Assembly: GCF_000243335.1 (NCBI RefSeq)
Contig: NZ_JH597773.1
Span: forward strand, 438,489 to 502,488
Direction of reading: 5' to 3'
DNA: 64,000 nucleotides
Source of the DNA: Leptonema illini DSM 21528
Lineage (GTDB): Bacteria > Spirochaetota > Leptospiria > Leptospirales > Leptonemataceae
The notes under the pieces are model-generated. The model made no database searches. It was not told the origin of the DNA and was given only the letters and a program-made list of their open reading frames with translations. This document shows positions 28,061-43,757 of this stretch, one piece after another. Within the stretch, counting starts at the first letter, position 1. Each line of letters opens with the position of its first letter. The position numbers were made by a program, and so were the translations under genes.

Positions 28061-29649
28061 AGAGATCTGCGCTCGTTCCTTCGCTTCGTTCTCTATTCAT
28101 CTCTTTTCTCTTTTTCGGGGGGCTGATCGCATGCGGTCCGCCTGCCCCCGATCATCTACCCGTAGAGAAGGAGGAGCCGTTGCGATCCACAGAAGAACTG
28201 CGTGCAGATCTGAAATCAGACGACTGGCAAAAGCGATCCGAGGCAGTGCTCGACATTCAGAAGCAGGGCGAGCGGACTTTCGAGGCCGATCTTCTGCGCT
28301 TACTTGAAAGTGACGCATCGCCGGCCGTGCGGCAGATCGCCGCTCTGACGCTGGCCGACTGGCAGTCGCGTAAGGCCGTTCCCATAATCGTGAGGCTTCT
28401 CTCGCGGCCCGAAATCGCGCCGGGCGTGACGGTGGACGCCACCTTTATGCTCGACGCCCTCTATCGCATGCCCGATGCGTCGGGAGCGGCAGCGGCCGCT
28501 GCTTATCTTCTGGATAACGATCTCAATCGCAGGTTATACGCCGTGCGCGCCCTTGAAGCGATGCAGAGCGGCGGAGCCCTCGTGCTGTCGATGGCGCAGC
28601 GCAATACCGACCCCGAAAAAGCGAGAGCGTTTGTGATGGCTCTGGGAAAGCTCGGCTACCGCCCGGCTGAGAGCTATCTGAAAGGCCAGCTGAAATCGCC
28701 CGCTCAGACGACGCAGGCCGCCGCCATCCTCGCCCTCGGTCGAGTAAAAAGCGTGAGCTCCGTTCCGGAGTTAGTCAGAATCCTCGACTCGGACTTCGTG
28801 AAAGGTCGCGAGAACGCGAAAGAGGCGCTGCTTGACATAGCAATGCCCGACACCGCCTCGCATGTTCTTCCGCTTCTTCGCTCATCAAGAGAAGAGACGC
28901 GTTATTTTGCCGCAGAAATCGCCGGCCGTCTTCCAGGTCGCGATACGGGCGAGAAGCTGCTCAAGATGTTTCAGGAGAACGATCGGCTAACGTCGGCTCC
29001 GGCGGCCACCGCTCTCGGCTATATGAAATACGAACCGGCTCGGTCGGCCATCGAGACGCGGCTTGTCGATCGCAATGCGGCCGAACGCGAGGCGCTTGCC
29101 CGTTCGCTTGGCTGGATCGGCAGCAGGGCGAGCATACAGCCGCTGATACAGGTGCTTCGCGAATCGGACGGCGACGGACGCTACGGCGCCGCCTGGTCCC
29201 TTGGCATACTGGAGGCAGAAGAGGCGTTACCCGATCTTGAGAAGGCCGCGAACAGTGGTGATTCTCGCCTTGCCTCGCTTGCCATCGAGGCCATCGGCAG
29301 CATCGCCTCGCCCTCCTCCCTGCCTTTGCTCGTCAGCCGGGCTCGTGACCCCGGCGTGCAGGTCTTTGCCATCGATGCGATCGGCAGGATTCCGGGAGAT
29401 CAGGCCGTGCAGGAATTACAGGAGCTTGCCACAGGCGGCAACGAAAAGACCGCAGCGCTTGCCGTGCAGGCCCTGAGCGGACGCAAAGAGCCCGCCGCCG
29501 TCGATGCGCTCATCGCCACGCTGCGCAAGACGTCGACCGAATCGCCGCTTGCCGGTCAGATCTACGCCGGCCTGCACCGCCAGACGGGGCAGCGTTACAC
29601 GACAAAGAACCAGTGGCTTCAGTGGGATGAGATCAGAAAGAGGAAGTGA
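28057..29649 (+). CDS. HEAT-repeat lipoprotein
   Basis: A 530-residue lipoprotein: signal peptide with lipobox GLIAC, then about a dozen HEAT/PBS-lyase-type repeats of roughly 30 residues (for example SPAVRQIAALTLADWQ, REALARSLGWIGSRASI, LASLAIEAIGSIASPSSL). Such solenoids bind proteins. Start GTG 28057 overlaps the upstream gene by four bases. Its stop codon lies inside the repeated sequence that flanks the mini-element at 29643-30313. The binding partner is unknown. HEAT lipoproteins are common in Leptospira. Confidence 0.82.
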   Translation: MKRSALVPSLRSLFISFLFFGGLIACGPPAPDHLPVEKEEPLRSTEELRADLKSDDWQKRSEAVLDIQKQGERTFEADLLRLLESDASPAVRQIAALTLADWQSRKAVPIIVRLLSRPEIAPGVTVDATFMLDALYRMPDASGAAAAAAYLLDNDLNRRLYAVRALEAMQSGGALVLSMAQRNTDPEKARAFVMALGKLGYRPAESYLKGQLKSPAQTTQAAAILALGRVKSVSSVPELVRILDSDFVKGRENAKEALLDIAMPDTASHVLPLLRSSREETRYFAAEIAGRLPGRDTGEKLLKMFQENDRLTSAPAATALGYMKYEPARSAIETRLVDRNAAEREALARSLGWIGSRASIQPLIQVLRESDGDGRYGAAWSLGILEAEEALPDLEKAANSGDSRLASLAIEAIGSIASPSSLPLLVSRARDPGVQVFAIDAIGRIPGDQAVQELQELATGGNEKTAALAVQALSGRKEPAAVDALIATLRKTSTESPLAGQIYAGLHRQTGQRYTTKNQWLQWDEIRKRK

Positions 29650-29705
29650 ATACCAGCTCCCAGGCAGACTCGAACTGCCGCCCCCCTCATTACGAATGAA
29701 ATGCT
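29643..29705 (-). repeat. Truncated tRNA-Thr copy (att-like direct repeat)
   Basis: These 63 bases repeat 30251-30313 with one substitution and a diverging end. They hold 12 bases beyond the tRNA 3' end plus the acceptor 3' strand, T arm, variable loop and anticodon arm of tRNA-Thr, but not its 5' half. The two copies are 608 bases apart and bracket a single HTH gene. Confidence 0.85.
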
Positions 29706-29910
29706 GGGCCCGGCTGTCTTCCCCGCACAGAATGCGTCATCCGCCTGACGCGTTCGCTTCAAACAAGAAAAAAGAGCTGACAGAAATCCTGTCCATGCCT
29801 TGTGTACCTATAAATCGGTACGCAGGGCATGGCGGAGCATATCATATATGCCGGGTCTTATTTCACCGTGGAATGGTACTATGACCGTTCTGGTGATCGG
29901 AGAGATGACT

Positions 29911-30228
29911 ATGAAAATCGCGTACAAGAAGGGACGTACTACGAAGACGACCTATGAAAGAGAGATGGAAGATCCCGAATTCCGCAAAGGTCTTGCCGAA
30001 GAAGAGGCCCGGCTCGCCCTCTCTGAGCTTCTGATTACGCTTATGGAAGAAGAAGAGGTCTCGGTACGCGAGCTGGCCAAGCGTGCCGATGTTTCGGCTT
30101 CGATCATTCAGGATCTGCGCAGCGGAAAGCGCGACAACCCCACTTTCTCAAGCTTCGCGCGGCTTATTCATTCCATGGGCTTCGAGATAGCTATCAAGCG
30201 CGGCCGTAAAACCTACGCCAGACTGTAG
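29911..30228 (+). CDS. XRE/HigA-like helix-turn-helix protein
   Basis: A 105-residue protein with a helical, acidic N-terminus and a C-terminal Cro/C1-type HTH (VSVRELAKRADVSASIIQDLRSGKRDNPTFSSFARLIHSMGF). The layout is that of HigA/antitoxin-type regulators. Start ATG 29911 has GGAGAG eight bases upstream; ATGs at 29881 and 29905 are also in frame. No HigB/RelE toxin gene is intact beside it; the 150 bases upstream contain no open gene. It is the only cargo of the tRNA-Thr element. Confidence 0.75.
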   Translation: MKIAYKKGRTTKTTYEREMEDPEFRKGLAEEEARLALSELLITLMEEEEVSVRELAKRADVSASIIQDLRSGKRDNPTFSSFARLIHSMGFEIAIKRGRKTYARL

Positions 30229-30262
30229 AAAACGGGTGATTGTGAATTAAGAAGTGAATACC

Positions 30263-30335
30263 AGCTCCCAGGCAGACTCGAACTGCCGACCCCCTCATTA
30301 CGAATGAGGTGCTCTACCGACTGAGCTATGGGAGC
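30263..30335 (-). tRNA. tRNA-Thr (CGT anticodon)
   Basis: A 73-base cloverleaf: acceptor GCTCCCA/TGGGAGC, D stem GCTC/GAGC, anticodon arm CCTCA-TTCGTAA-TGAGG giving anticodon CGT, T arm GGCAG-TTCGAGT-CTGCC, discriminator T. CCA is not encoded. It reads codon ACG. Its 3' portion is duplicated at 29643-29705. Confidence 0.96.
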
Positions 30336-30611
30336 AAGCATGGTCAGTCTCGAAAAGCCGATTCTGCGTGCAAGCAGGAATCGGGGGCAGCAAGCCCGCT
30401 TCCCCTTGCTACACAGGCAAAAACACGCTCATGTGCGGCTTCGCTAAACATTTAGAAATCATTTAACCGCTGAGGACGCGGAGGGCACAGAGAAGAGCTG
30501 TGAGGGGAAGAGGCTGCTGTTAGGTAGCCTCTTCTCTCTGTTCGCCGGGCAGTAAGTGTCGTGTATCGTTTCGCTGGTGATTTTCCCTTCGTTGCAAATG
30601 AAGGGCCTGCA
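30336..30611. other. Gene-free stretch between tRNA-Thr and the CRISPR trailer
   Basis: It holds an imperfect hairpin (CCGATTC with GAATCGG near 30357-30385) and, at about 30463-30500, another copy of the intergenic motif (TTAACCGCTGAGGACGCGGAGG) seen at 8390 and 18550. No gene is seen. Confidence 0.6.
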
Positions 30612-33600
30612 CGGTCCTTGCCCGCGCATACTGGGAATAGATGCCGGCAAGGACAGCGATCTGCGCTTCTTTCGGTTCAGCCCCGCACATGCGGGGAATA
30701 GACATTGGTGTTCAGGTTGCCGGTGACGAGATACGGTTCATCCCCGCATGCGCGGGGAATAGGTCTCGAATCTGTCCGTTTCGGTCAACGTCGCCGGTTC
30801 ACCCCCGCGCATGCGGGGAATAGTTCTGGCTTTCGTCGAACAGAAGCACGACTCGCGGTTCATCCCCGCGCATGCGGGGAATAGGCCTTGAGGACGTTGT
30901 CGATGTCCCGTCTGCGCGGTTCATCCCCGCGCGTGCGGGGAATAGCTGAACGCATACCCGCCTTTCCCGATTGAGCGCGGTTCATCCCCGCGCATGCGGG
31001 GAATAGAAGATCGTCACACCGCCGAAGAGCGGAGTCGACGGTTCATCCCCACGCATGCGGGGAATAGACCGTTCAGGTTGAGGTGAGCGGCGACGAAGAC
31101 GGTTCATCCCCGCGCATGCGGGGAATAGTCGACGACCGTTTCAACGCCCGAAAATTCTGACGGTTCATCCCCGCATGCGCGGGGAATAGGACGACGGCCG
31201 ATATGAGATCGCGGTCGCTCACGGTTCATCCCCGCATGCACGGGGAATAGCCCGATGGATTTTCGCAACTTACTGACGTCCTCGGTTCATCCCCGCATGC
31301 GCGGGGAATAGTGCACTCCTCTGACTATCACAACGTCGATGTCCGGTTCATCCCCGCATGCGCGGGGAATAGCGTTTCGGCCACATGGCCAACCGGAATG
31401 ATCACGGTTCATCCCCGCATGCGCGGGGAATAGTTCCAGATCCCTACGGGCAGTTTCGTTCCCGTACGGTTCATCCCCGCATGCGCGGGGAATAGAAGTT
31501 CGCCGCTGCGTTCTTGATGCGCTATGGCGGTTCATCCCCGCATGCGCGGGGAATAGGTTTTCATGTTCTTTATTCTCCCTTATAAATACGGTTCATCCCC
31601 GCATGCGCGGGGAATAGCGTATAGAACCTTCCCTTGTCGTCCCGAAAAACGGTTCATCCCCGCATGCGCGGGGAATAGTTGCTATTCTTCATCCTGAATG
31701 GTCCAATGAACGGTTCATCCCCGCATGCGCGGGGAATAGTAACGGACTCCGCAACCGTTATCCGCCGATCGCGGTTCATCCCCGCATGCGCGGGGAATAG
31801 CTCAGTTTTACCCGGACGTTGCTGGCGAAAAACGGTTCATCCCCGCATGCGCGGGGAATAGGATTGCGCCGGCGCCCGCTGCTTCTGCGGTGTCGGTTCA
31901 TCCCCGCATGCGCGGGGAATAGACGAACTCATCGGCGACTACGTGCGTTTCAAGCGGTTCATCCCCGCATGCGCGGGGAATAGTCGGGGTTTCCATTTTT
32001 TCCACCAGTCGAGCGCGGTTCATCCCCGCATGCGCGGGGAATAGGAACTTCTCTTGAATAGTTTTGATCGAGGGCGCGGTTCATCCCCGCATGCGCGGGG
32101 AATAGGACCGCACGAGCATCCCGAACGACGTCGCTCGCGGTTCATCCCCGCATGCGCGGGGAATAGCTCTCCGCTTTTGGTTAACTTAATAGACTTGTCT
32201 GGTTCATCCCCGCATGCGCGGGGAATAGAATTTCTTTTTTTATTCGAGGACGAGGCCGCCCGGTTCATCCCCGCATGCGCGGGGAATAGCATAATTAAGC
32301 CTCCTGGGGTTTAGTTGTGCCCGGTTCATCCCCGCATGCGCGGGGAATAGAATCTGAATCTGTTTTATCTTCCTACCGGTGACGGTTCATCCCCGCATGC
32401 GCGGGGAATAGGTTCCAGTTTGTGGGGTTTGATGAGCTCGGGCAGGTTCATCCCCGCATGCGCGGGGAATAGATGTACGCCTTTATGAGGGGCTGAGGAT
32501 CGTACGGTTCATCCCCGCATGCGCGGGGAATAGTCGGCCGAGGTGGTCAACCAATTTAAACTCGACGGTTCATCCCCGCATGCGCGGGGAATAGACTTTC
32601 GGGGCGTCCGCGAGTATTCGAAGACTCGGTTCATCCCCGCATGCGCGGGGAATAGGCGTCTTCTGGCGATGCTCCATTCGGCCACGGCGGTTCATCCCCG
32701 CATGCGCGGGGAATAGACTCGCGGGCTCTATCGATGAGCTCGTTTAACCGGTTCATCCCCGCATGCGCGGGGAATAGATCTTCTATTTGTTTCCACTTTA
32801 AATCAAAGGCGGTTCATCCCCGCATGCGCGGGGAATAGCAAAGCGGCGGTTTGCCCCTGCTTCTGATACTCGGTTCATCCCCGCATGCGCGGGGAATAGA
32901 GCTTTCCGGATGCGCTTTTCAAGCCCGGCAGCGGTTCATCCCCGCATGCGCGGGGAATAGCGTTTCAAGGGTTACGGATAAATTGCGGAGTGCGGTTCAT
33001 CCCCGCATGCGCGGGGAATAGTCGATGACCCGAAGTCTGGGCTCATCGCAGGACGGTTCATCCCCGCATGCGCGGGGAATAGGTTGCCCCTACCCCCATT
33101 ATGATGCCTGACGACGGTTCATCCCCGCATGCGCGGGGAATAGATAGTCAGCCTCAGTCTTACTCTTCCGAGTCTCGGTTCATCCCCGCATGCGCGGGGA
33201 ATAGATCGTATATGCATTTATCGCCGGCGGATTAGGCGGTTCATCCCCGCATGCGCGGGGAATAGGTATCCCCATAGAGTCGTAAATACATACATGACGG
33301 TTCATCCCCGCATGCGCGGGGAATAGAGCTCGGCGGGATTTCCGGCGGTGTGCTGTCGCGGTTCATCCCCGCATGCGCGGGGAATAGTGGATCTGAAAGG
33401 TCTTCCAACCTCTGGAGGGCGGTTCATCCCCGCATGCGCGGGGAATAGTCGTTCTGTGATAGCCATTACGCGACCTCCTGCGGTTCATCCCCGCATGCGC
33501 GGGGAATAGGGAAGAATGAAGTCCTCGATAATGATGTTATACGGTTCATCCCCGCATGCGCGGGGAATAGATGGACGGGGCGCTGAACCAGTTCACGGAA

Positions 33601-34489
33601 GGCCGGTTCATCCCCGCATGCGCGGGGAATAGGTGCTCGTAAATCCATGCCACAGAATAGCATACGGTTCATCCCCGCATGCGCGGGGAATAGCCGAGAA
33701 TTCGGTCAATCTCAGAGGAGACAAGCGGTTCATCCCCGCATGCGCGGGGAATAGATGCCAAAGCTAAGATAGCTTCCGCCGGAATACGGTTCATCCCCGC
33801 ATGCGCGGGGAATAGGACTTCGAGTCGGACCAGTCGCGTGCGGCGCGCGGTTCATCCCCGCATGCGCGGGGAATAGAAAACGATCGTTTTCTTTTCTCCG
33901 TCCGTGAGCGGTTCATCCCCGCATGCGCGGGGAATAGTTTGGTTGCCTTTTTAGCAACTTTCTCGACCTCGGTTCATCCCCGCATGCGCGGGGAATAGGA
34001 CAGATGAGGAGATCGAGACGCTCAGGTTTGCGGTTCATCCCCGCATGCGCGGGGAATAGGCCCACTGCGCTACGCGCAGAACAACAGCGGCCGGTTCATC
34101 CCCGCATGCGCGGGGAATAGTCAGTGATTTCGGCAAGGGTCAACCGGTGAGAGGGTTCATCCCCGCATGCGCGGGGAATAGGCCATCAACAGTTGAGATG
34201 GCGAATGTATTGTCTGGTTCATCCCCGCATGCGCGGGGAATAGTACGTATACCGAAATCTCTGTATAACCAAAAGGCGGTTCATCCCCGCATGCGCGGGG
34301 AATAGTATTCATCGAGTGCAGCATAAAGAGCCGGAAACGGTTCATCCCCGCATGCGCGGGGAATAGACGCGACCTCCTGCTTACGGTGCGCTATGTAGTC
34401 GGTTCATCCCCGCATGCGCGGGGAATAGCATGACAGCGTGTTAGCTCCTACGAATATGTACGGTTCATCCCCGCATGCGCGGGGAATAG
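30612..34489 (-). CRISPR. Type I-E CRISPR array, 64 repeats and 63 spacers
   Basis: I counted 64 repeats of 29 bases. On the transcribed (minus) strand a repeat is CTATT, stem CCCCGC, 4-base loop, stem GCGGGG, then ATGAACCG, the 8-base crRNA handle. Fifty-seven spacers are 32 bases and six are 33. The leader end is at 34489, next to cas2. The first repeats at the low-coordinate end (30612, 30673) are degenerate, as expected of the trailer. The loop/stem core occurs in two versions, CCCCGCATGCGCGGGG and CCCCGCGCATGCGGGG on the plus strand, which are reverse complements of each other. Four repeats (32200, 32444, 34153, 34215) have lost the first plus-strand C. Confidence 0.98.
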
Positions 34490-34532
34490 ACTAAAAGTCC
34501 GTATAGGTGTTTTTAAAGATCACTGCTTAAAG
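34490..34532 (-). promoter_or_regulatory. CRISPR leader
   Basis: Only 43 bases lie between the cas2 stop and the first repeat, so the A/T-rich leader and its promoter probably extend into the end of cas2. An inverted repeat CTGCTT/AAGCAG (34523-34540) spans the cas2 stop. Confidence 0.65.
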
Positions 34533-34829
34533 TCAAGCAGGTTTTTGCTTGCTTTCTGGAACGGGATACTGGGTGAGCACCATCCCCTCAAAATCGACGA
34601 TTTCCCGGCTCGTGTCACCGTTCGAAAGAGCTGCGTAGCCTTGCTCTGTGTTCGTTTTATAGATCATCAAAGCGTCCACTTTCCACTCTTCCGTTATGCG
34701 CGCCCATAGCTTCTCGCGCACACGTCGGCCGAAGTTGCCGACGAAAACGCCAGCTTTCAGCTCAATAGTTAACCGCGACATCACGCCCCTCTGAGCCGGC
34801 GTCGCTCTCTCCAGCACGACGATTACCAT
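34533..34829 (-). CDS. cas2: CRISPR-associated endonuclease/integration factor Cas2, type I-E
   Basis: A 98-residue Cas2e: MVIVVLERATPAQRGVMSRL, then VFVGNFGRRVREKLW and ALMIYKTNTEQGY. It forms the integration complex with Cas1 that inserts new spacers. ATG 34829 has GGAGG seven bases upstream and lies inside the end of cas1 (68-base overlap). It is the last cas gene before the leader. Confidence 0.93.
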   Translation of the reverse strand: MVIVVLERATPAQRGVMSRLTIELKAGVFVGNFGRRVREKLWARITEEWKVDALMIYKTNTEQGYAALSNGDTSREIVDFEGMVLTQYPVPESKQKPA

Positions 34830-35640
34830 ACAACACCTCCATGATGTCAGGAATGATCCGCTTGAGCAGCTTTCGCTCTTTGAAAACATCACGGCATTCC
34901 ATTCTTACACGTGATTCTACCGATGCCGGCCCCTGTGCTATACGGAATGCGATCGGTATAGTGAGCTCCGTTTTATAGAGGTCAGCAAGATCATACACAA
35001 AGGAAAGCTGCTTTCCGGTGTGAATGAAACCGATGCCGGCCGAACAACCGACGGCAAGGATCGCTGCATGACAGAGACCATACAGGCAGGAGTTTGCAGC
35101 AGACAATGCCTTATTGATCGGGTCCGAGATCCCCCATTCCGATTGATCGTAGTTTCGCCCCGTCCATTCAATCTCGTACTCTTCGGCAGCGGCCTTATAG
35201 GCCGCTCTCACACGAGCCCCTTCTTTGCCCCGCAGTTGCTCTATGCTATACCGTTCATCAACGACTTCGTCAAACCGCATTTCGTAGAGCTTTCTCACAA
35301 CGCGCAGTCGTTCTTCTGGATCGGAATAGAGCTGCGCCTGACGCAGCAGATTCCTTGAAGAATACGTTCCCTGAGTGCCGGCCGAGTACATCCGCACTCC
35401 TTCATCGCCAACCCAGCACAACAAACACCGAGCATCAGTGAGGCGCTTGATGGCTGCATGTGTGATTGTCGTTCCGGGTCCGAGCATCAGGAGTGATAGT
35501 GTTTCAGCCGGTATTGGAACCTTTTTGTCTTTGTAGAAATAGGCCACCGTCTGCATATCCTGCTCGATATGACCCTTCTCGAAGTAGAGATAGCTCCAGT
35601 TCTCGTCGAACCTCGGCAATTCCTGAAGATCTCGATTCAT
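34762..35640 (-). CDS. cas1: CRISPR integrase Cas1, type I-E
   Basis: A 292-residue Cas1e, the spacer-acquisition integrase. Typical segments are LPRFDENWSYLYFEKGHIEQ, LLMLGPGTTITHAAIKRL, VRMYSAGTQGTYSSRNLLRQA, DPINKALSAANSCLYGLCHAAILAVG (with metal ligands nearby) and GFIHTGKQLSFVYDLADLYK. ATG 35640 overlaps the cas6e stop by four bases (ATGA) and has GGAGAG upstream. Confidence 0.95.
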   Translation of the reverse strand: MNRDLQELPRFDENWSYLYFEKGHIEQDMQTVAYFYKDKKVPIPAETLSLLMLGPGTTITHAAIKRLTDARCLLCWVGDEGVRMYSAGTQGTYSSRNLLRQAQLYSDPEERLRVVRKLYEMRFDEVVDERYSIEQLRGKEGARVRAAYKAAAEEYEIEWTGRNYDQSEWGISDPINKALSAANSCLYGLCHAAILAVGCSAGIGFIHTGKQLSFVYDLADLYKTELTIPIAFRIAQGPASVESRVRMECRDVFKERKLLKRIIPDIMEVLYGNRRAGESDAGSEGRDVAVNY

Positions 35641-36311
35641 ATTGCTCTCCGGAGAAGAAGAAGGCCGCAACCGAAGGCCTTTCCGTGGCCAATACCTTTC
35701 AAAAGCGAGCGGCGAAACGGCTCTTCGTCCGTAACCGTAAGCACACCGCTAAAATCCATGATACCGAAGGTCATCTTCGTATCTTTTTTCCTGGTCTGCA
35801 ATCGACGATATCGCTCGACGAGGACATGATTAACCGAGAAGCCGAGAGCCTCTGAACGACCGATCAACCATTCGCTGCCAGAATGCGTTAGCACTTCCTG
35901 TGATGTTATTTGTTCAGCGGCCGGCAGAGCCTGATTCTTAGCCAGAGCATCCAGATAAACATCATCGCGGCGCCGTTTCTTTGATTCTTTACCCTCTGGC
36001 ATCCTTGTGACGACAGGATTGGCTCGCAGTTGAAACTGATAGACAGCGCCCTTCCTGATTACAGGCGCGAATGGCTTGGTTTCAATAAGGAAGGCATCCA
36101 GATCGTTCTCGGGCTTTCTCTCAGAAAGCAAAAAGAACTGCATGGTTTTGCTATCATCGTTCTTTCTGTAGAGAAAGTCACGGTGCTGCTCCTCGTTTTC
36201 GGGGAAAAATCGCCAGATGAGCCTGTGCTCATCATAAAGTCCGCCGTAAATTTCAGTTTTCAAGAACTTCCGAATTTGCGAAGGACTGAGGGTGATTCTA
36301 CTGAAATACAT
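35637..36311 (-). CDS. cas6e: crRNA-processing endoribonuclease Cas6e (Cse3/CasE)
   Basis: A 224-residue RAMP protein that cuts pre-crRNA at the base of the repeat hairpin and remains on the crRNA 3' end. MYFSRITLSPSQI opens the first ferredoxin fold; ANPVVTR and the C-terminal glycine-rich loop KGIGHGKAFGCGLLLL are family marks. It overlaps cas5e by 14 bases. The same enzyme would have to process the mini-CRISPR at 40885-40975, whose repeat-like units keep the 6-base-pair stem. Confidence 0.93.
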   Translation of the reverse strand: MYFSRITLSPSQIRKFLKTEIYGGLYDEHRLIWRFFPENEEQHRDFLYRKNDDSKTMQFFLLSERKPENDLDAFLIETKPFAPVIRKGAVYQFQLRANPVVTRMPEGKESKKRRRDDVYLDALAKNQALPAAEQITSQEVLTHSGSEWLIGRSEALGFSVNHVLVERYRRLQTRKKDTKMTFGIMDFSGVLTVTDEEPFRRSLLKGIGHGKAFGCGLLLLRRAI

Positions 36312-37020
36312 CGGCGGCCTCCATTTCTATGAGGAACTCACTTCGCTCGCCAAACTGCCAGTTTCCTCGATGAATCAACCGATCCCGCCTCTGAAACTCC
36401 GCTCGTGTACCTGAGGCCGGCCGATCTTCCGTAAACAACTGAAAATAGACAGTATCTTCTGGTATCAGCGGCTTAAGCAGATCAGACATCGGTAATTCGA
36501 CCTTTTTCATGGCCTCCATCACCGAACCGGCGTGAACCAGTTCTGGATGGAAAGGGAGAGCAGGCGGACAACTTTTGCGACCCAGATACGGAGCGAAAAC
36601 GGGTCGTTGCAGAGATTCGCCGATCTGCTTCAGCAGCTCCTCATCATCTGAATTCAACGCAACGCGAAACAGCGCATCCTGACGGTAGTCACGAGTTGAC
36701 AGAATGGTATTCAAATCTGGTTGAAGCAGCTCTTCGCGTCTTGTGAAAAGCCGTTTTCCTTTTCTGGCTGAAGGGACCTGTACCGTATGGTAATCACGCA
36801 ACAGGTTGCCGGCGGCGAGAACAAGAACTGAGAAGCGAACGGCCTCTGCAAGCTTCGCAATACGGTCTTGCTCCTCCCGCCGTATTCCCATGGCACCGGC
36901 GACGAGGCCAAGAACGCCCGATTTCGTCGGATGAACATGCGATGGCCGGTATTCGCCGACGGCAGTATCTCCGGCAGCGAACAGAGCACCATGCATGTGA
37001 AAGACGAGATAGGATTGCAT
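36298..37020 (-). CDS. cas5e: Cascade subunit Cas5e (CasD)
   Basis: A 240-residue Cas5e that caps the crRNA 5' handle in Cascade. SYLVFHMHGALFAAGDTAVGEYRPSHVHPTKSGVLGLVAGAMGI is the conserved N-terminal half (positions 2-45). ATG 37020 with GGAG eight bases upstream is chosen over GTG 37029. The gene overlaps or abuts cas7e and overlaps cas6e. Confidence 0.93.
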   Translation of the reverse strand: MQSYLVFHMHGALFAAGDTAVGEYRPSHVHPTKSGVLGLVAGAMGIRREEQDRIAKLAEAVRFSVLVLAAGNLLRDYHTVQVPSARKGKRLFTRREELLQPDLNTILSTRDYRQDALFRVALNSDDEELLKQIGESLQRPVFAPYLGRKSCPPALPFHPELVHAGSVMEAMKKVELPMSDLLKPLIPEDTVYFQLFTEDRPASGTRAEFQRRDRLIHRGNWQFGERSEFLIEMEAADVFQ

Positions 37021-37025
37021 CGGTC

Positions 37026-38102
37026 TCACTCCGCTACACAGAAATTGAGAATCTCTTGTAACGAACCTTCGCCGGTTAGCACGTTCATCGTTGCCACAGC
37101 CTCACTGCATTTTCCGTAGACCTGCTCCATCCGATCGCGTATATCGCTCAGCGACTGAATTGAGTTCTGTAGCATGTCGTCGCCCTGCACTGCTTTTACG
37201 TAGGCAAGCGATAGAGAGCGCGGTTGTTGATCTCCAAGTTCCGCCATGATATAGTGAGCGTATGCTCGAGAGCCGAAGGAATTCTGCTTACCCGTCGGTG
37301 CAACCGTTGCCGCCGCTTGTACGAGCGCTCGGATCGCCTTCTTCGCAAGCTCTTTGTCACCGGCTCCTTTCAGGTTTTCGTTCAACAGTGTGCGATCGAT
37401 ATTGATATACGTGTAGAAGATACCCGAGGCAAACTCGGTGTCGCCCATGTGGCCGGCACCTACATCTTCCTCACCTTTATTCAGATCGTCGACAGCTGTG
37501 AAGAAGTCGTCTTCAACGACTACCTTTTGAACGGAGAAGGAATGCGCCACTTGTGCTGCCGCCTCGACATTGAATTTCGGATCGCTTGCCAGCATTCGGC
37601 CGAACAGCGCAATATCGGCACCACTATTTTCCGCTCTCAGTAGCTCCAGCTGCTCCTCTGTCGGTGCACTTTTTGCCTTAATGAGTTCGCCTGTTAAAGC
37701 AAAGATGGCCTTCTGCTCTTCCGGCGAAACAAACGCGAGTTGCTCAATGTGAAGCACTGTGGGCAGCTTCTCCTTCTCGCCCTTCAGTTTTCCAAAACAG
37801 CCGGCAATACTTCTTGCCCACGCTATGGCATCCTTCTCGGCAATACCACCCGCCTTAAGCTTTTCGTAGACGTCCTCGCCTATGCGCTTCGAACGGATTC
37901 CCAGGCCACCATCGATACTGATTCCACCAAGCCCTTCCTGGAAAACCGAAGATGTTCGCCAGGCTCGCTTCAAGCTCTGCGACGATATGCGCAATCGCGT
38001 CGTGCCGCCGACAACAGCCGTCTTGGGGCGACCGAGATCATCCCGGTTCAAATTCGACGGCGGGTAGGACGTCAACATGTGTATTTGCAAAAACCTTTTC
38101 AT
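37026..38102 (-). CDS. cas7e: Cascade backbone subunit Cas7e (Cse4/CasC)
   Basis: A 358-residue Cas7e; six copies form the crRNA-holding backbone whose thumbs flip out every sixth base. FLQIHMLTSYPPSNLNRDDLGRPKTA and RLRISSQSLKRAWRTS are strongly conserved; FASGIFYTYINID and ATVAPTGKQNSFGSRAYAHY are typical of the C-terminal half. SD and spacing are normal for this operon. Confidence 0.95.
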   Translation of the reverse strand: MKRFLQIHMLTSYPPSNLNRDDLGRPKTAVVGGTTRLRISSQSLKRAWRTSSVFQEGLGGISIDGGLGIRSKRIGEDVYEKLKAGGIAEKDAIAWARSIAGCFGKLKGEKEKLPTVLHIEQLAFVSPEEQKAIFALTGELIKAKSAPTEEQLELLRAENSGADIALFGRMLASDPKFNVEAAAQVAHSFSVQKVVVEDDFFTAVDDLNKGEEDVGAGHMGDTEFASGIFYTYINIDRTLLNENLKGAGDKELAKKAIRALVQAAATVAPTGKQNSFGSRAYAHYIMAELGDQQPRSLSLAYVKAVQGDDMLQNSIQSLSDIRDRMEQVYGKCSEAVATMNVLTGEGSLQEILNFCVAE

Positions 38103-38141: not shown

Positions 38142-38687
38142 CTACTCCGAATCGCTATCTTGCGATTCGCTCGAAGCATCAAGGGTTGTTCCTGTATAGT
38201 ACAGGTAGGCCCATTCCTTGCGCGTCTGATCATTCCAGAACGTCAGCGACTTTGCAAGATCCTGAACATTCACCTTTTCATCCAGCAGGCGAACCATGCG
38301 AATCATCATCACATACAGTTCCGTATCATCCTCCGTTTTCAGGAGCCTACGAAACCGCAAATCACTGATGCGAGCCTTACTATCCTTATTCTCTGGGCCC
38401 ATTGATCGTGCCACCGGAACAGTCACTCTGTTCGGCTTCACGTGGGCCAGAACACCGGCAACAATAGGCATACGCGTGCGTTGCATCGTCATCGAAAGTC
38501 CAAAAGGCCTTATCGCTTTGAGCAAGGCGAAATAAGCTGGCGTCAGTGCTGCCTCGTCCGGTGAATGGGCACGCCGCAACTCAGCTCTGTCACCAGGTAA
38601 GTCTTGCAACGCAAGCCACCATTGCTCAATGGCAGCCCACGCTGCTTTGTAATCCACAGGCCCTTTACTCTGTGGTTGTGCTTTCAT
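38142..38687 (-). CDS. cse2: Cascade small subunit Cse2 (CasB)
   Basis: A 181-residue helical protein that forms a dimer in the belly of Cascade and steadies the R-loop. WWLALQDLPGDRAELRRAHSPDEAALTPAYFALL and FRRLLKTEDDTELYVMMIRMVRLLD are characteristic. It overlaps cse1 by four bases. Confidence 0.92.
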   Translation of the reverse strand: MKAQPQSKGPVDYKAAWAAIEQWWLALQDLPGDRAELRRAHSPDEAALTPAYFALLKAIRPFGLSMTMQRTRMPIVAGVLAHVKPNRVTVPVARSMGPENKDSKARISDLRFRRLLKTEDDTELYVMMIRMVRLLDEKVNVQDLAKSLTFWNDQTRKEWAYLYYTGTTLDASSESQDSDSE

Positions 38688-40291
38688 ACCATGCCTCCTT
38701 TAGCTGCGGCACTGATGCCCAGCTTCTCACTGAATTTATTGCTTCGATTGAAGATCAGCAGATCTCTGCGGGCGCGGACTACTCGCGGCATTTTTTCGTC
38801 TTTGCGCATACCATCCTCTTTGCCTTCATCGAGGGAGATCTGACTCGAATAGTGGTCATACAAATCCATGGATACCTTCTGAAGAGCTTTAAGCCAGTTC
38901 CGGAGTACGGGCGCCGGATCCTCAATTACCTTCATGACTTCCCTTAACGAATCATAGTAATTTGGTTCTGTGCTCTGCCAGAATTCGGTCTTGACGAAAT
39001 CAAGATCACCTCTCACAGAAGCGCCGGAATCGAAGAAGGCCAATTGAACGGCCTTTCGTGTGTTCGACGCAATGTCATTCGCGACATCGGCCATTGCTGT
39101 TGCGTACGGCGCAAATTCCTTTCGCAATGCTTCATCAGGCATCGGCCAGTAAGGCATTCTTGCCTCATACCAACAGCGTGCCTTCATGTTATCCATGTCA
39201 TAACCAAAGGCATATATTGCATAATCCTTCGTCGTACTTCCTGATCGCAACCGGTTGCCAAGAACACGGACAACGATCGCCCTTTCTTTCTCACCGACAT
39301 CTGCGATAACGAAATCGGGCCAATGACGATACGTAAAACCGCCCGGCTGCGGATGCACCGGTCGAAGGACGCCTTTGTCGTTGTAATACGGCGATAAAGG
39401 ATGCAGGATTCCTGCCGCATAGTTTGCCCCATGAGGGACAGTTGCATACTGACGATAGAACTTAGCACCGGCAGCGTTACAAATACTACAGGCTCCCTCT
39501 TCCTCGCTCGCCGGGAACAGGCGAATACGCCGCGGCGTCGCCCAGAAGGTCTGCGCCGGATGAATATGCGAACCTAGTATCTCCGTACCGGCTGTCTTAC
39601 TAAGTTTGGTGGCCGCCATCCACGGGAAGATGGCCTGCAAAGCCTTCAGAGAAGGCTTACATTGGGTCGCCGAAAGATCCTCCTTTAGGAGAACGTTCAG
39701 CCAGGCAGTATGCCACAGAGTCTGAAACTTTGGCTCTTGAGGTAAGACAATCGTTGTCAAGGGCCCGCCGCCGCGAAGAGAGGTTCGATGACCAGCGCCA
39801 CCGCTCGGCGCATTAGTCTGCAAGGTTAACAAAGCCGTCGCTGTGCAGGCTGGGCACATCTGCTGAATCTGATTGCGCTTCACGAAATGATCGGCATTGT
39901 TCTTGATCGTGTTGGCTCCCGGCGCCTCAATCAAAAGACTACCAATCGGCGTGCCTTCCTCAGCGGCTAACTCAAGATCTTGAAAAAAACGCGGGCCAGG
40001 CCCATCGAGCTCGAAGGCTGTAGCATAGACTGCCATGCTACTCTCAAGATCTGCCATCGCCGGCGGCTTCAAAAAGAGTTCTTCCCAATCCTCCGGTTCA
40101 GCCGGTGTTAGCACTGTCTGCAAAAGACCAATAAAGAACTGGATGAGCGCACCGTTGAAGTCGGGTCGCACTGCATCCAGACGCACGACAGGATCGGACT
40201 CAAGATTCTCAACCATTTGTGCAGGTCGAATGATCTCACGTCGGCCGCTCCGCCGTAGAACAGGAATCCATGCTTCTTTTAGAAGATTCAT
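38684..40291 (-). CDS. cse1: Cascade large subunit Cse1 (CasA/Cas8e)
   Basis: A 535-residue Cas8e, which recognises the PAM and recruits Cas3. MNLLKEAWIPVLRRSGRREI is the usual N-terminus; a Cys pair (MCPACTATALL, and CSICNAAG further on) fits the zinc-binding part of many family members. ATG 40291 has GGAGG six bases upstream. An intrinsic terminator (40384-40421) lies upstream, so this gene must have its own promoter in 40292-40383, where none is obvious to me. Confidence 0.95.
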   Translation of the reverse strand: MNLLKEAWIPVLRRSGRREIIRPAQMVENLESDPVVRLDAVRPDFNGALIQFFIGLLQTVLTPAEPEDWEELFLKPPAMADLESSMAVYATAFELDGPGPRFFQDLELAAEEGTPIGSLLIEAPGANTIKNNADHFVKRNQIQQMCPACTATALLTLQTNAPSGGAGHRTSLRGGGPLTTIVLPQEPKFQTLWHTAWLNVLLKEDLSATQCKPSLKALQAIFPWMAATKLSKTAGTEILGSHIHPAQTFWATPRRIRLFPASEEEGACSICNAAGAKFYRQYATVPHGANYAAGILHPLSPYYNDKGVLRPVHPQPGGFTYRHWPDFVIADVGEKERAIVVRVLGNRLRSGSTTKDYAIYAFGYDMDNMKARCWYEARMPYWPMPDEALRKEFAPYATAMADVANDIASNTRKAVQLAFFDSGASVRGDLDFVKTEFWQSTEPNYYDSLREVMKVIEDPAPVLRNWLKALQKVSMDLYDHYSSQISLDEGKEDGMRKDEKMPRVVRARRDLLIFNRSNKFSEKLGISAAAKGGMV

Positions 40292-40884: not shown

Positions 40885-40975
40885 CAAAGCCTCAAATTCT
40901 TGGGGATGAACCGTAAAACGAGCGGTGAAAGGCAGACAAAGCCGCTTTCTTCCCCACAAATGTGGGGCTTCACTT
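40885..40975 (+). ncRNA. Degenerate mini-CRISPR encoding a CreR/CreA-like regulatory crRNA
   Basis: Two repeat-like 29-mers flank a 33-base spacer (40914-40946). Unit 1 (40885-40913): CAAAG, stem CCTCAA, loop ATTC, stem TTGGGG, handle ATGAACCG. Unit 2 (40947-40975): TTCTT, stem CCCCAC, loop AAAT, stem GTGGGG, CTTCACTT. Both keep the 5+6+4+6+8 architecture of the array repeat, and unit 1 keeps the complete GGGGATGAACCG end. Orientation is opposite to the main array. Unit 2 overlaps the last bases of cas3. Established cases of such elements (CreA of CreTA modules; CreR cas-repressing RNAs, reported for types I-B, I-E and V-A) guide Cascade to promoters by limited complementarity without cleavage. 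Confidence 0.85.
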
Positions 40976-43747
40976 TTGGGCCTCCAGCCGGAGGCCCAAT
41001 TTTTCTGAATAGACAAATCTTTCCTGCTTGGTCGTTTCGCCCAGGCTCCTGTAGAGACCTTGCTCCAGCTGTTCAAAAGGCAAAAGGGAGCCACCACGGC
41101 CCTGATCAGGAAGGCGCCGCTCGGCTTCTTCGATTATCCTTCTCAATTCGGAGGGCAAAACGACCTCGACAGGGCGAAACTTTACCTCGCTCAATGCAAA
41201 CGACTGGTCGTTACTGGCAACGAGTGGCCGCACAGTAGACCCTTCAAGCAAGCAGAGCCTGTAGGTCCTTGTTTCATCGGTAAGGCGCGTCGGTGCAGAA
41301 TGATCGGGCCAGGGATTGAGATCGCTGCTTTGCAGGAAGCCCTTCTCTAAATCGATGAGATTCGTCTGTGCTGTGAAACCGGCTTTATCGTCTGCCGAGT
41401 GAGCCCGGTGACTCTGTTCTACTAAGGCATGCGGAGTCTCTGTCTCGCCGTACACCGCCTCAATCAAATATCGCAACCTTGCAGGGATCTCGATCTGACG
41501 TTCACGTTTCAAGACGCTGGCCGTGCGCCAGAGAATACCATGATTCTGATAAACCTTTGCACCACCGGGAAAGCATCCCATGTACCAGTCTGCTTCGATC
41601 GTAGTGTCAGGATCCGGTCCAAAGATGATTACGGTTCCGACACCTCGTCCATCTACCGTGTCGATACGATTCCCGGATTGGTCGCGAGCATGACGTCGCA
41701 AACGACCGACTCGCTGAATGACGAGATCAATCGGACAGAGGTCGGTGATCATTTCGTCGAAATCAAGATCAAGCGATTGTTCAACTACCTGCGTCGCAAG
41801 GAGAATCCTCCCTGCCCGCTCAGCGCTCGTCGATTCCTTACCAAAAGTACGAAGCACTCGTTCTTCAATGTCGCTGCGATGCCCCATAGCAAAACGAGAA
41901 TGAAAGACGAAAAGTTTATCGGCATCTATCTCTACCGATAATTGATCATAGGCCCGCTGCACATCGGCAACCGTGTTGCGAATCCAGACCGCGCAGCGAC
42001 CCTCTCGCGAAATTTCGGCCAACCGCTCTACGACGGGTTCAATGGCACCATCCTCAGAGGTGAGGAACTCCACACCGACCGAACGACAGTGTCTCGCAGA
42101 CGGCTCAATGGGGATGAAGTCAACCTTGCCGGATTCCACAATGGTAATGAGAGGATAGTGCATCTCTTCTCTGAGGTTTACTTCAGGTTCATCGCCCTGG
42201 CCGTTACAGCCGGACAGGTAGGCTGCGCCAAGGCTCTCTTTCATGGATACGGGCAGCGTAGCCGAAAGCAGAACAACACTACGGCCCTGCTGCGCTTGAA
42301 ACTTGATGAGTGATTCGAGCAACTCCTGCATGTACGCGTCATAAGCATGCACCTCATCAACGATGAGTATCTTACGAGAAAGCCCGAACATACGCAGAGT
42401 ATTATGCTTGGAGTATATCACCGAAAGCAAGGCCTGATCAATGCTACCGACACCGACCTGAGCAAGGAAGGCCTTTCGGGCGCGATCAGCGATCCATGTA
42501 TTGCAGGCGGCCTTGGTAGTTTGCTGTTCCTCTGCGTCTGTTGCGTTAAACTCAACGTCCGTAACACGCGAATGCTCTGGCAGGAGAGAATCCTGAAAAG
42601 CTGCGTTCAATTCAGGGCGACCATGGGCAAGAATCAGCGATGCATTCGAGCCGGCAGCGAAGTAGTTGCTATAAATGGCAGCAAGGCGCGAGTACATGCC
42701 GTTTGAAGTTGCCATAGTCGGCAAGGCGAAATAAAACCCTTCGACATTCTCCTTATCCATCAGGCTTGCCGTCAATAGGAGGGCTGCTTCTGTCTTACCT
42801 GCGCCTGCGATGTCTTCAATGATGTACAGGGCAGGCCCCCGCCCCTCAGTCGCCTGAAGCATGGCCGTCTGTAGCGGTGTAGGCGTATAGGGTTTGAATG
42901 TGGGAAACAACTCTTCCCATGGGTTGGTTAGTTTTCGCCGAGGTACGGCAACCAACCCCTGCCGAAGTAAGGCTGCATCTGCAAGCTCAAGCGACTCTGA
43001 AAAAGCCTTCTTAAGATCGAACTCACTGGCATGCTCTTTAGTGAACGGCAGGTTCAGGGGGAAATTATCTGACGAAGAGCCGGTCCAGTCAGCAAGGATG
43101 ATCAAACCAGAGAGTGGAAACGAAAATCTCGCTAATTCCGGTCTCACTGACCGCGTTTTCGCCCATTGCTGCATAGCGGTCAGGCTTCCAGGCAGCAAGT
43201 GCAAGAGATCGTCAATATATGCCTTAGCAGCAAGCTGAACTTTATCGTCGTACAGCTGCCTCAGCGGCGGCGGGGTGGATGGATCCAAAGCTTCCACCGG
43301 TTTGCCGTGATGCCCAAAACTTGCCGTTAACAGAGGGCGAATCGAACGATTCAAAACACCCATATCATCGGATGATAAGTCGCTAAGTTGGTCCTTAATC
43401 TGCCCCCATATCGATGCATCCCAGAATCCAAAACCTGAAGAAGGGTGAGAGGCCCTGCTTGCATAACTAATGCCTGTCCGCCCCGTCAAAAGTGTGGCCA
43501 ATTGAGGAATCTTGAATTGAAAATCGAGGGCAAACTTGCCGAGATCATGAATGGCGGTCAAAAAAGTGACGAGATCAGCAAGAACATCGCGCTCAACCTG
43601 TAGCCTACGTGCCCAATCGTGTACGAAGGCCGGATGTCGTAGCAGCCATTGTCGGGCCACGGCCGCAACGTCCAGCATGTGGAGAACGAGGGGGCGCCAG
43701 CGGCCAGATTCTCCGTCGGCCTTGCCCCAGAATCGAAGATAGTGCAT
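40970..43747 (-). CDS. cas3: CRISPR-associated helicase/nuclease Cas3, type I-E
   Basis: About 925 residues. N-terminal HD nuclease (HMLDVAAVA, AIHDLGKFAL, FGHHGKP, LADWTGS), then SF2 helicase (Walker A EDIAGAGKTEAALL, Walker B DEVHAYD, motif III LLSATLP, motifs V/VI LLATQVVEQSLDLDFDEM and QRVGRLRRH), then a C-terminal domain. It degrades DNA after Cascade forms a full R-loop. ATG 43747 is preferred; TTG 43753 is in frame. A promoter just upstream would give an almost leaderless mRNA. The stop lies within repeat-like unit 2 of the mini-CRISPR. Confidence 0.95.
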   Translation of the reverse strand: MHYLRFWGKADGESGRWRPLVLHMLDVAAVARQWLLRHPAFVHDWARRLQVERDVLADLVTFLTAIHDLGKFALDFQFKIPQLATLLTGRTGISYASRASHPSSGFGFWDASIWGQIKDQLSDLSSDDMGVLNRSIRPLLTASFGHHGKPVEALDPSTPPPLRQLYDDKVQLAAKAYIDDLLHLLPGSLTAMQQWAKTRSVRPELARFSFPLSGLIILADWTGSSSDNFPLNLPFTKEHASEFDLKKAFSESLELADAALLRQGLVAVPRRKLTNPWEELFPTFKPYTPTPLQTAMLQATEGRGPALYIIEDIAGAGKTEAALLLTASLMDKENVEGFYFALPTMATSNGMYSRLAAIYSNYFAAGSNASLILAHGRPELNAAFQDSLLPEHSRVTDVEFNATDAEEQQTTKAACNTWIADRARKAFLAQVGVGSIDQALLSVIYSKHNTLRMFGLSRKILIVDEVHAYDAYMQELLESLIKFQAQQGRSVVLLSATLPVSMKESLGAAYLSGCNGQGDEPEVNLREEMHYPLITIVESGKVDFIPIEPSARHCRSVGVEFLTSEDGAIEPVVERLAEISREGRCAVWIRNTVADVQRAYDQLSVEIDADKLFVFHSRFAMGHRSDIEERVLRTFGKESTSAERAGRILLATQVVEQSLDLDFDEMITDLCPIDLVIQRVGRLRRHARDQSGNRIDTVDGRGVGTVIIFGPDPDTTIEADWYMGCFPGGAKVYQNHGILWRTASVLKRERQIEIPARLRYLIEAVYGETETPHALVEQSHRAHSADDKAGFTAQTNLIDLEKGFLQSSDLNPWPDHSAPTRLTDETRTYRLCLLEGSTVRPLVASNDQSFALSEVKFRPVEVVLPSELRRIIEEAERRLPDQGRGGSLLPFEQLEQGLYRSLGETTKQERFVYSEKLGLRLEAQK

Positions 43748-43757
43748 TCGCAATCGG

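Follow-up and report, generated by a model that had tools for sequence, protein, structure and literature searches.

Exact inversion of the hairpin loop in repeats of a type I-E CRISPR array of Leptonema illini, probably caused by template switching

The type I-E CRISPR array of the spirochete Leptonema illini 3055T carries its repeat in two versions that differ by an exact inversion of the four-base hairpin loop. Read in the sense of the crRNA, 56 of the 64 repeats have the loop GCAT (version M), while in the remaining eight (version m) it is ATGC or a loop one step removed from ATGC. The arms of the hairpin are identical in M and m (7 bp, TCCCCGC/GCGGGGA); the 16-base cores of the two versions are exact reverse complements of each other, with the flanks keeping their orientation. 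We consider it probable that the loop was inverted by a polymerase switching templates at the palindrome, that this took place at least twice, and that the change found between R55 and R56 (repeats are counted from the leader) was spread by copying of the repeat at the leader end.

The repeats of the array are 29 nt and its spacers 32–33 nt long, and no similar pair was found among all 63 spacers. Features are collected in Table 1, with coordinates in the window, i.e. the whole stretch of 64,000 nucleotides that was analysed. Both the genes and the repeats are those of a type I-E system: cse1, cse2, cas3, cas7, cas5, cas6e, cas1 and a cas2 of I-E type are all present, each of the eight scoring over its Pfam cut-off, and the repeats have the 28–29 nt length, the stem of at least 6 bp with a tetraloop, and the 32–33 nt spacers of this type. 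Like the genes cas3-cse1-cse2-cas7-cas5-cas6e-cas1-cas2, which precede it, the array is read on the minus strand, where the repeat is CTATTCCCCGC-loop-GCGGGGATGAACCG. Since the high-coordinate end of the array adjoins the cas genes and has perfect repeats, and the low-coordinate end is decayed, we numbered the repeats from R1 (young, leader) to R64 (old). Only about 43 bp lie between the first repeat and the end of cas2, so any leader motif would have to be very short or located inside cas2. The published table of the L. illini genome lists 0 CRISPR repeats (PMC3746420), as against the 64-repeat I-E array and full set of cas genes present in this genome. Beside the array, at 29636–30337, there is a partial copy (91% over 70 nt) of the end of a tRNA-Thr(CGT) gene (30263–30335, minus strand), 608 bp from that gene; the gene and the copy bracket a small helix-turn-helix gene (29905–30228), an arrangement resembling that of a small element integrated at a tRNA gene.

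Table 1. Features of the I-E array and of the adjoining cas genes (coordinates in the window)
Feature	Coordinates	Strand	Remarks
Type I-E CRISPR array	30612..34489	minus	64 repeats, 63 spacers; leader side at high-coordinate end
R1–R55, all with loop GCAT (version M)	31161..34489	minus	R54 (31222) with one stem change
R56–R61, loop ATGC (version m)	30795..31128	minus	R59 (30917) with loop ACGC; R57 (31039) with stem change; R61 (30795) with flank change
R62, lone version M (GCAT) flanked by m-type repeats	30734..30762	minus	flanks perfect
R63, m-derived, loop ATGT	30673..30701	minus	
R64, terminal degenerate repeat, m-derived	30612..30640	minus	loop ATGC, 5 other changes
Candidate leader, array–cas2 gap	34490..34532	minus	position inferred from cas2 and repeat-conservation gradient
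cas2, I-E type	34533..34892	minus	PF09707, E 6.4e-24
cas1	34762..35670	minus	PF01867, E 1.1e-18
cas6e	35637..36311	minus	PF08798, E 2.5e-46
cas5e	36298..37029	minus	PF09704, E 1.8e-34
cas7e, CT1975-like	37026..38102	minus	PF09344, E 1.3e-98
cse2/cas11	38142..38687	minus	PF09485, E 4.9e-16
cse1/cas8e	38684..40291	minus	PF09481, E 3.2e-102
cas3, HD + helicase	40970..43753	minus	PF18019, PF22590, E 1e-36

A sequence-only reading had described two mutually reverse-complementary hairpin cores in this array; both are real, and its coordinates were correct throughout. On the plus strand, the core CCCCGCATGCGCGGGG is exact in 55 repeats and the core CCCCGCGCATGCGGGG at 30803, 30864, 30986 and 31108. 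The second version had been assigned to all repeats from 30795 to 31100, which is true of four of them (30795, 30856, 30978 and 31100), while those at 30917 and 31039 are one base away from it, in the loop and in the stem, respectively. The repeat at 30734, described as a first-version repeat surrounded by the second version, is indeed one. The flanks had been called unchanged, as they generally are, except for the one base that differs in the repeat at 30795. The minority version reaches further than had been noticed: the outermost repeats at 30673 and 30612 (R63 and R64) derive from it as well, and together with R56–R61 they make the minority block the oldest, leader-distal end of the array. 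Chance is excluded as the source of the pattern, because 67 matches were observed against 4.3 expected from shuffles, all but three of them within the array.

All 64 repeats keep the 29-nt length, the register and the flanks, including an unusual CTATT 5′ flank common to both versions. Comparison of M with R56, R58 and R60, and R62 in turn, gives what template switching predicts: a loop replaced by its exact reverse complement, with arms, flanks and length kept. Folding gives one and the same hairpin for both versions, at an equal calculated energy (–14.3 kcal/mol), which supports the earlier suggestion that Cas6e would see the same stem in both. The change of the loop is probably neutral, with function probably unaffected.

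Some young and otherwise perfect repeats (at 32200, 32444, 34153 and 34215) have A, T or C instead of G as their last base in the crRNA sense, the base that adjoins the spacer. With this base excluded, further changes were found in none of the 53 repeats R1–R53 and in 6 of the 11 repeats R54–R64, an age gradient that fits copying from the leader end. In Cas1-Cas2 adaptation the leader-proximal repeat is duplicated at each spacer acquisition, and it is through this duplication that an inverted version could spread. While copying one arm of the palindrome, a polymerase would switch to the complementary strand or to an extruded hairpin, copy the loop from the switched template and then switch back, so that nothing but the four loop bases would be turned into their reverse complement. 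The inversion at the R55/R56 boundary would have hit the repeat that was then leader-proximal, and the 55 later repeats would have inherited the loop GCAT. R62 would mark a second event, either an inversion in place or a flip followed by a flip back. From old to young, the order is two m, one M, six m and 55 M, which amounts to three switches along the copying line, or two if R62 changed in place. With at least two such switches (R55/R56 and R62), a process that recurs and acts in one step is favoured. A single four-base coincidence could reflect lost intermediates; two or three are hard to obtain otherwise than in one step.

The one-step inversion of the core, or strand switching, that had been proposed from the sequence thus remains the best fit, given the four simultaneous differences, the lack of intermediates near GCAT, the number of switches, the intact flanks and stem, and the over-representation of inversions elsewhere (see below); the strand-switch step itself we infer. 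By its position in the array m would be the older version, a simple order from which R62 departs. It counts against this reading that no sister strain shows ancestor and descendant; no I-E array with this core was found in 60 relatives of Leptonema.

Stepwise point mutation would have to bring about the same change by four transitions in successive leader-proximal repeats, the intermediates being later lost by array deletion. Each of the four sites does show a transition between the two loops, transitions are the most frequent kind of single change in other arrays (34 of 48), CRISPR arrays often lose repeat-spacer units, and the loops ACGC (R59) and ATGT (R63) each stand one step from ATGC toward GCAT. 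Yet both are singletons in the decayed block, none of the 64 repeats has a loop one or two steps from GCAT, and R62 would need the same four changes again or back-mutation of all four. Stepwise intermediates had been named as what would speak against inversion; apart from derivatives of ATGC, no repeat in the array has a loop one to three changes from GCAT. Single transitions are in any case a poor refutation, because any of the four that separate the two loops would look intermediate. We regard the stepwise course as quite improbable.

Still less credible is a shift of a GC dinucleotide by slippage (CCCC-GC-GCATGC-GGGG to CCCC-GCATGC-GC-GGGG or back), with loss on one side of GCATGC and gain on the other. 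Both versions do hold GCATGC, displaced by two bases within a GC-rich run, and the outcome would here be the same as that of an inversion. Two indels would be needed, however, and neither the core of 14 or 18 nt nor the repeat of 27 or 31 nt expected from a single slip is found among the array repeats, all of which have 29 nt. Slippage would also leave unexplained the loop pairs GGGC/GCCC, GCAC/GTGC and AGAC/GTCT found in the arrays L234, L257 and L108 (see below).

Palindromic GC-rich hairpins are hard to sequence, and the assembly is a draft of three scaffolds, so that an artefact of sequencing or assembly has to be considered. The minority version is, however, block-structured (R56–R61), with each repeat bounded by unique spacers, and the published assembly was polished, with about 1300× coverage and a stated error below 1 in 100,000 (PMC3746420), which makes such an artefact extremely improbable.

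Recombination between CRISPR repeats is established, and two related I-E arrays or strains might have been joined by homologous recombination or gene conversion. GCAT and ATGC are each the fixed consensus loop in different I-E arrays, and the spacers of the old block are slightly GC-richer (0.56 vs 0.51), although this difference is not significant (P = 0.06). Against a joined array stand the lack of a second I-E array of such kind in the L. illini genome (4,522,760 bases, all three contigs), the lack of this core among the relatives, the sharing of other repeat features, such as the 5′ flank, by both versions, and R62, which would require a double exchange inside one 29-nt repeat. We consider this origin unlikely.

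Template switching, the reading that we prefer, raises the question of how often such inversions arise. For an unselected sample we took the regions around I-E cas2 genes (PF09707) and parsed all arrays irrespective of their loops; the sample covered the class of a Streptomyces (L043), the classes of L124, L109 and L106, and the phylum of L076, and three short misoriented arrays (L151, L158, L244) were left out. The 164 arrays, with 5079 intact repeats, contained 48 distinct single-base loop variants, 34 of them transitions, and eight multi-base variants, of which two were exact inversions. In L234, the seventh of 12 repeats has GCCC for GGGC, two transversions in an otherwise identical repeat; in L257 the change is from GCAC to GTGC and affects a decayed repeat at the array end. 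A third variant (AGTC to GACC in L191) is one base short of inversion. A substitution model with the observed share of transitions predicts 0.10 inversions (P(≥2) = 0.0016) and a pool of natural loops 0.12 (P(≥2) = 0.0045), both being set against two events only. Another 32 arrays, taken as a second sample, held a single multi-base variant, which was not an inversion. Core-inverted repeats, which the sequence-only reading had suggested looking for in other I-E arrays, are thus present as exact inversions in 2 of 196 unselected arrays (about 1%), and account for two of nine multi-base loop changes against about 0.1 expected. Exact inversion is rare but over-represented among multi-base loop changes, a suggestive result that rests on two events; most multi-base changes in other arrays are not inversions. 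Loops that alternate by a double transition at the outer positions (GCCT/ACCC, ATCC/GTCT), sometimes along with single-step forms (ACCT, GCCC, ATCT), were seen in L063, L045, L052, L288, L097 and L121; this is not inversion of the whole loop.

A scan of 84,980 species genomes, in which we looked for adjacent cores of the forms WNNC and GNNW, yielded 102 stretches. Eight are true arrays with flanks in the same orientation and an exact inversion between neighbours (L070, L076, L106, L108, L109, L123, L126, L135). L109, from a Rhodospirillales MAG, has from young to old nine GCAC, five ATGC and one GCAT, and so includes the ATGC/GCAT pair of Leptonema; GCAT being a common loop, this pair is not strongly unexpected in a biased scan. 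A Nocardiopsis MAG (L108) has the pair AGAC/GTCT, and in L067 an array with GCCT adjoins one with AGGC. L092, L102 and L132 were rejected as core inversions, since the inversion there extends to the flanks or to the entire repeat. About half of the stretches are no CRISPR arrays; they are scattered inverted doublets of a palindromic element, with units 56–59 bases apart, inverted flanks, loops such as TTTC and GAAA, and cores such as CCCCGC-TTTC-GCGGGG; they come from Magnetococcales, Rhodobiaceae and Xanthobacteraceae MAGs (L053, L056, L060, L065, L035, L040, L038, L054 and similar) and resemble elements of the REP/BIME type. The scan set was chosen by pattern and hence shows existence, not frequency. 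Because about half of it is non-CRISPR and the pattern forces a mixed pair, we rejected it as a proof of generality and used the unselected sample for statistics.

The switch may have happened in ordinary replication or while gaps were being filled after integration. One could imagine that inversion is tied to adaptation: integration by Cas1-Cas2 would leave the strands of the palindromic repeat single-stranded, a hairpin would form, fill-in synthesis would switch strand, and the inverted loop would found a new repeat lineage. We put this forward tentatively and think it doubtful. If it holds, arrays keep a dated record of such events, and loop inversions that mark integration would reveal how repeat gaps get filled.

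What is described here is a known class of mutation in a known kind of array, at a site that is apparently undescribed: a search covering part of the literature found no prior description of loop inversion in CRISPR repeats. Such repeats are many near-identical short palindromes in known age order, and are therefore a natural recorder of template-switch mutation at bacterial hairpins. In practice, tools that compare repeats by mismatches will count one inversion as two to four independent changes.

With the type I-E system of E. coli K-12 the present one shares the complete cas3-cse1-cse2-cas7-cas5-cas6e-cas1-cas2 set, 29-nt hairpin repeats and 32-nt spacers; it differs in its candidate leader of about 43 bp and in its inverted cores, no repeat with a perfect inverted core being found for E. 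coli among the matches listed (4512 genomes with repeat matches). As in the leader-distal degeneracy of CRISPR arrays (PMC4869251), changes gather in the oldest repeats and spread as repeats are duplicated, but the usual changes are point changes, indels and truncations, whereas here there is an exact inversion of the hairpin loop. The closest likeness in form is to rRNA hairpins, in which 69 cases of loop inversion by template switch, mostly of four-base loops, are enriched over simulation (PMC8794818). There, too, the stem arms are perfect and stay as they were while the loop between them becomes its reverse complement; those cases were found in multicopy rRNA genes by ancestral reconstruction, whereas in a CRISPR repeat the order of the array replaces phylogeny. 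In yeast inverted repeats, spacers are inverted by intermolecular template switching (PMC8604942), and the changes likewise span 2–5 bp between perfect arms. The yeast cases lie in coding genes and have arms of >9 bp, of which the 7-bp arms of our repeats fall short, but >9 bp is a limit of the yeast data set and not part of the definition of the class. The yeast inversions are recurrent and reversible, and this reversibility fits R62.
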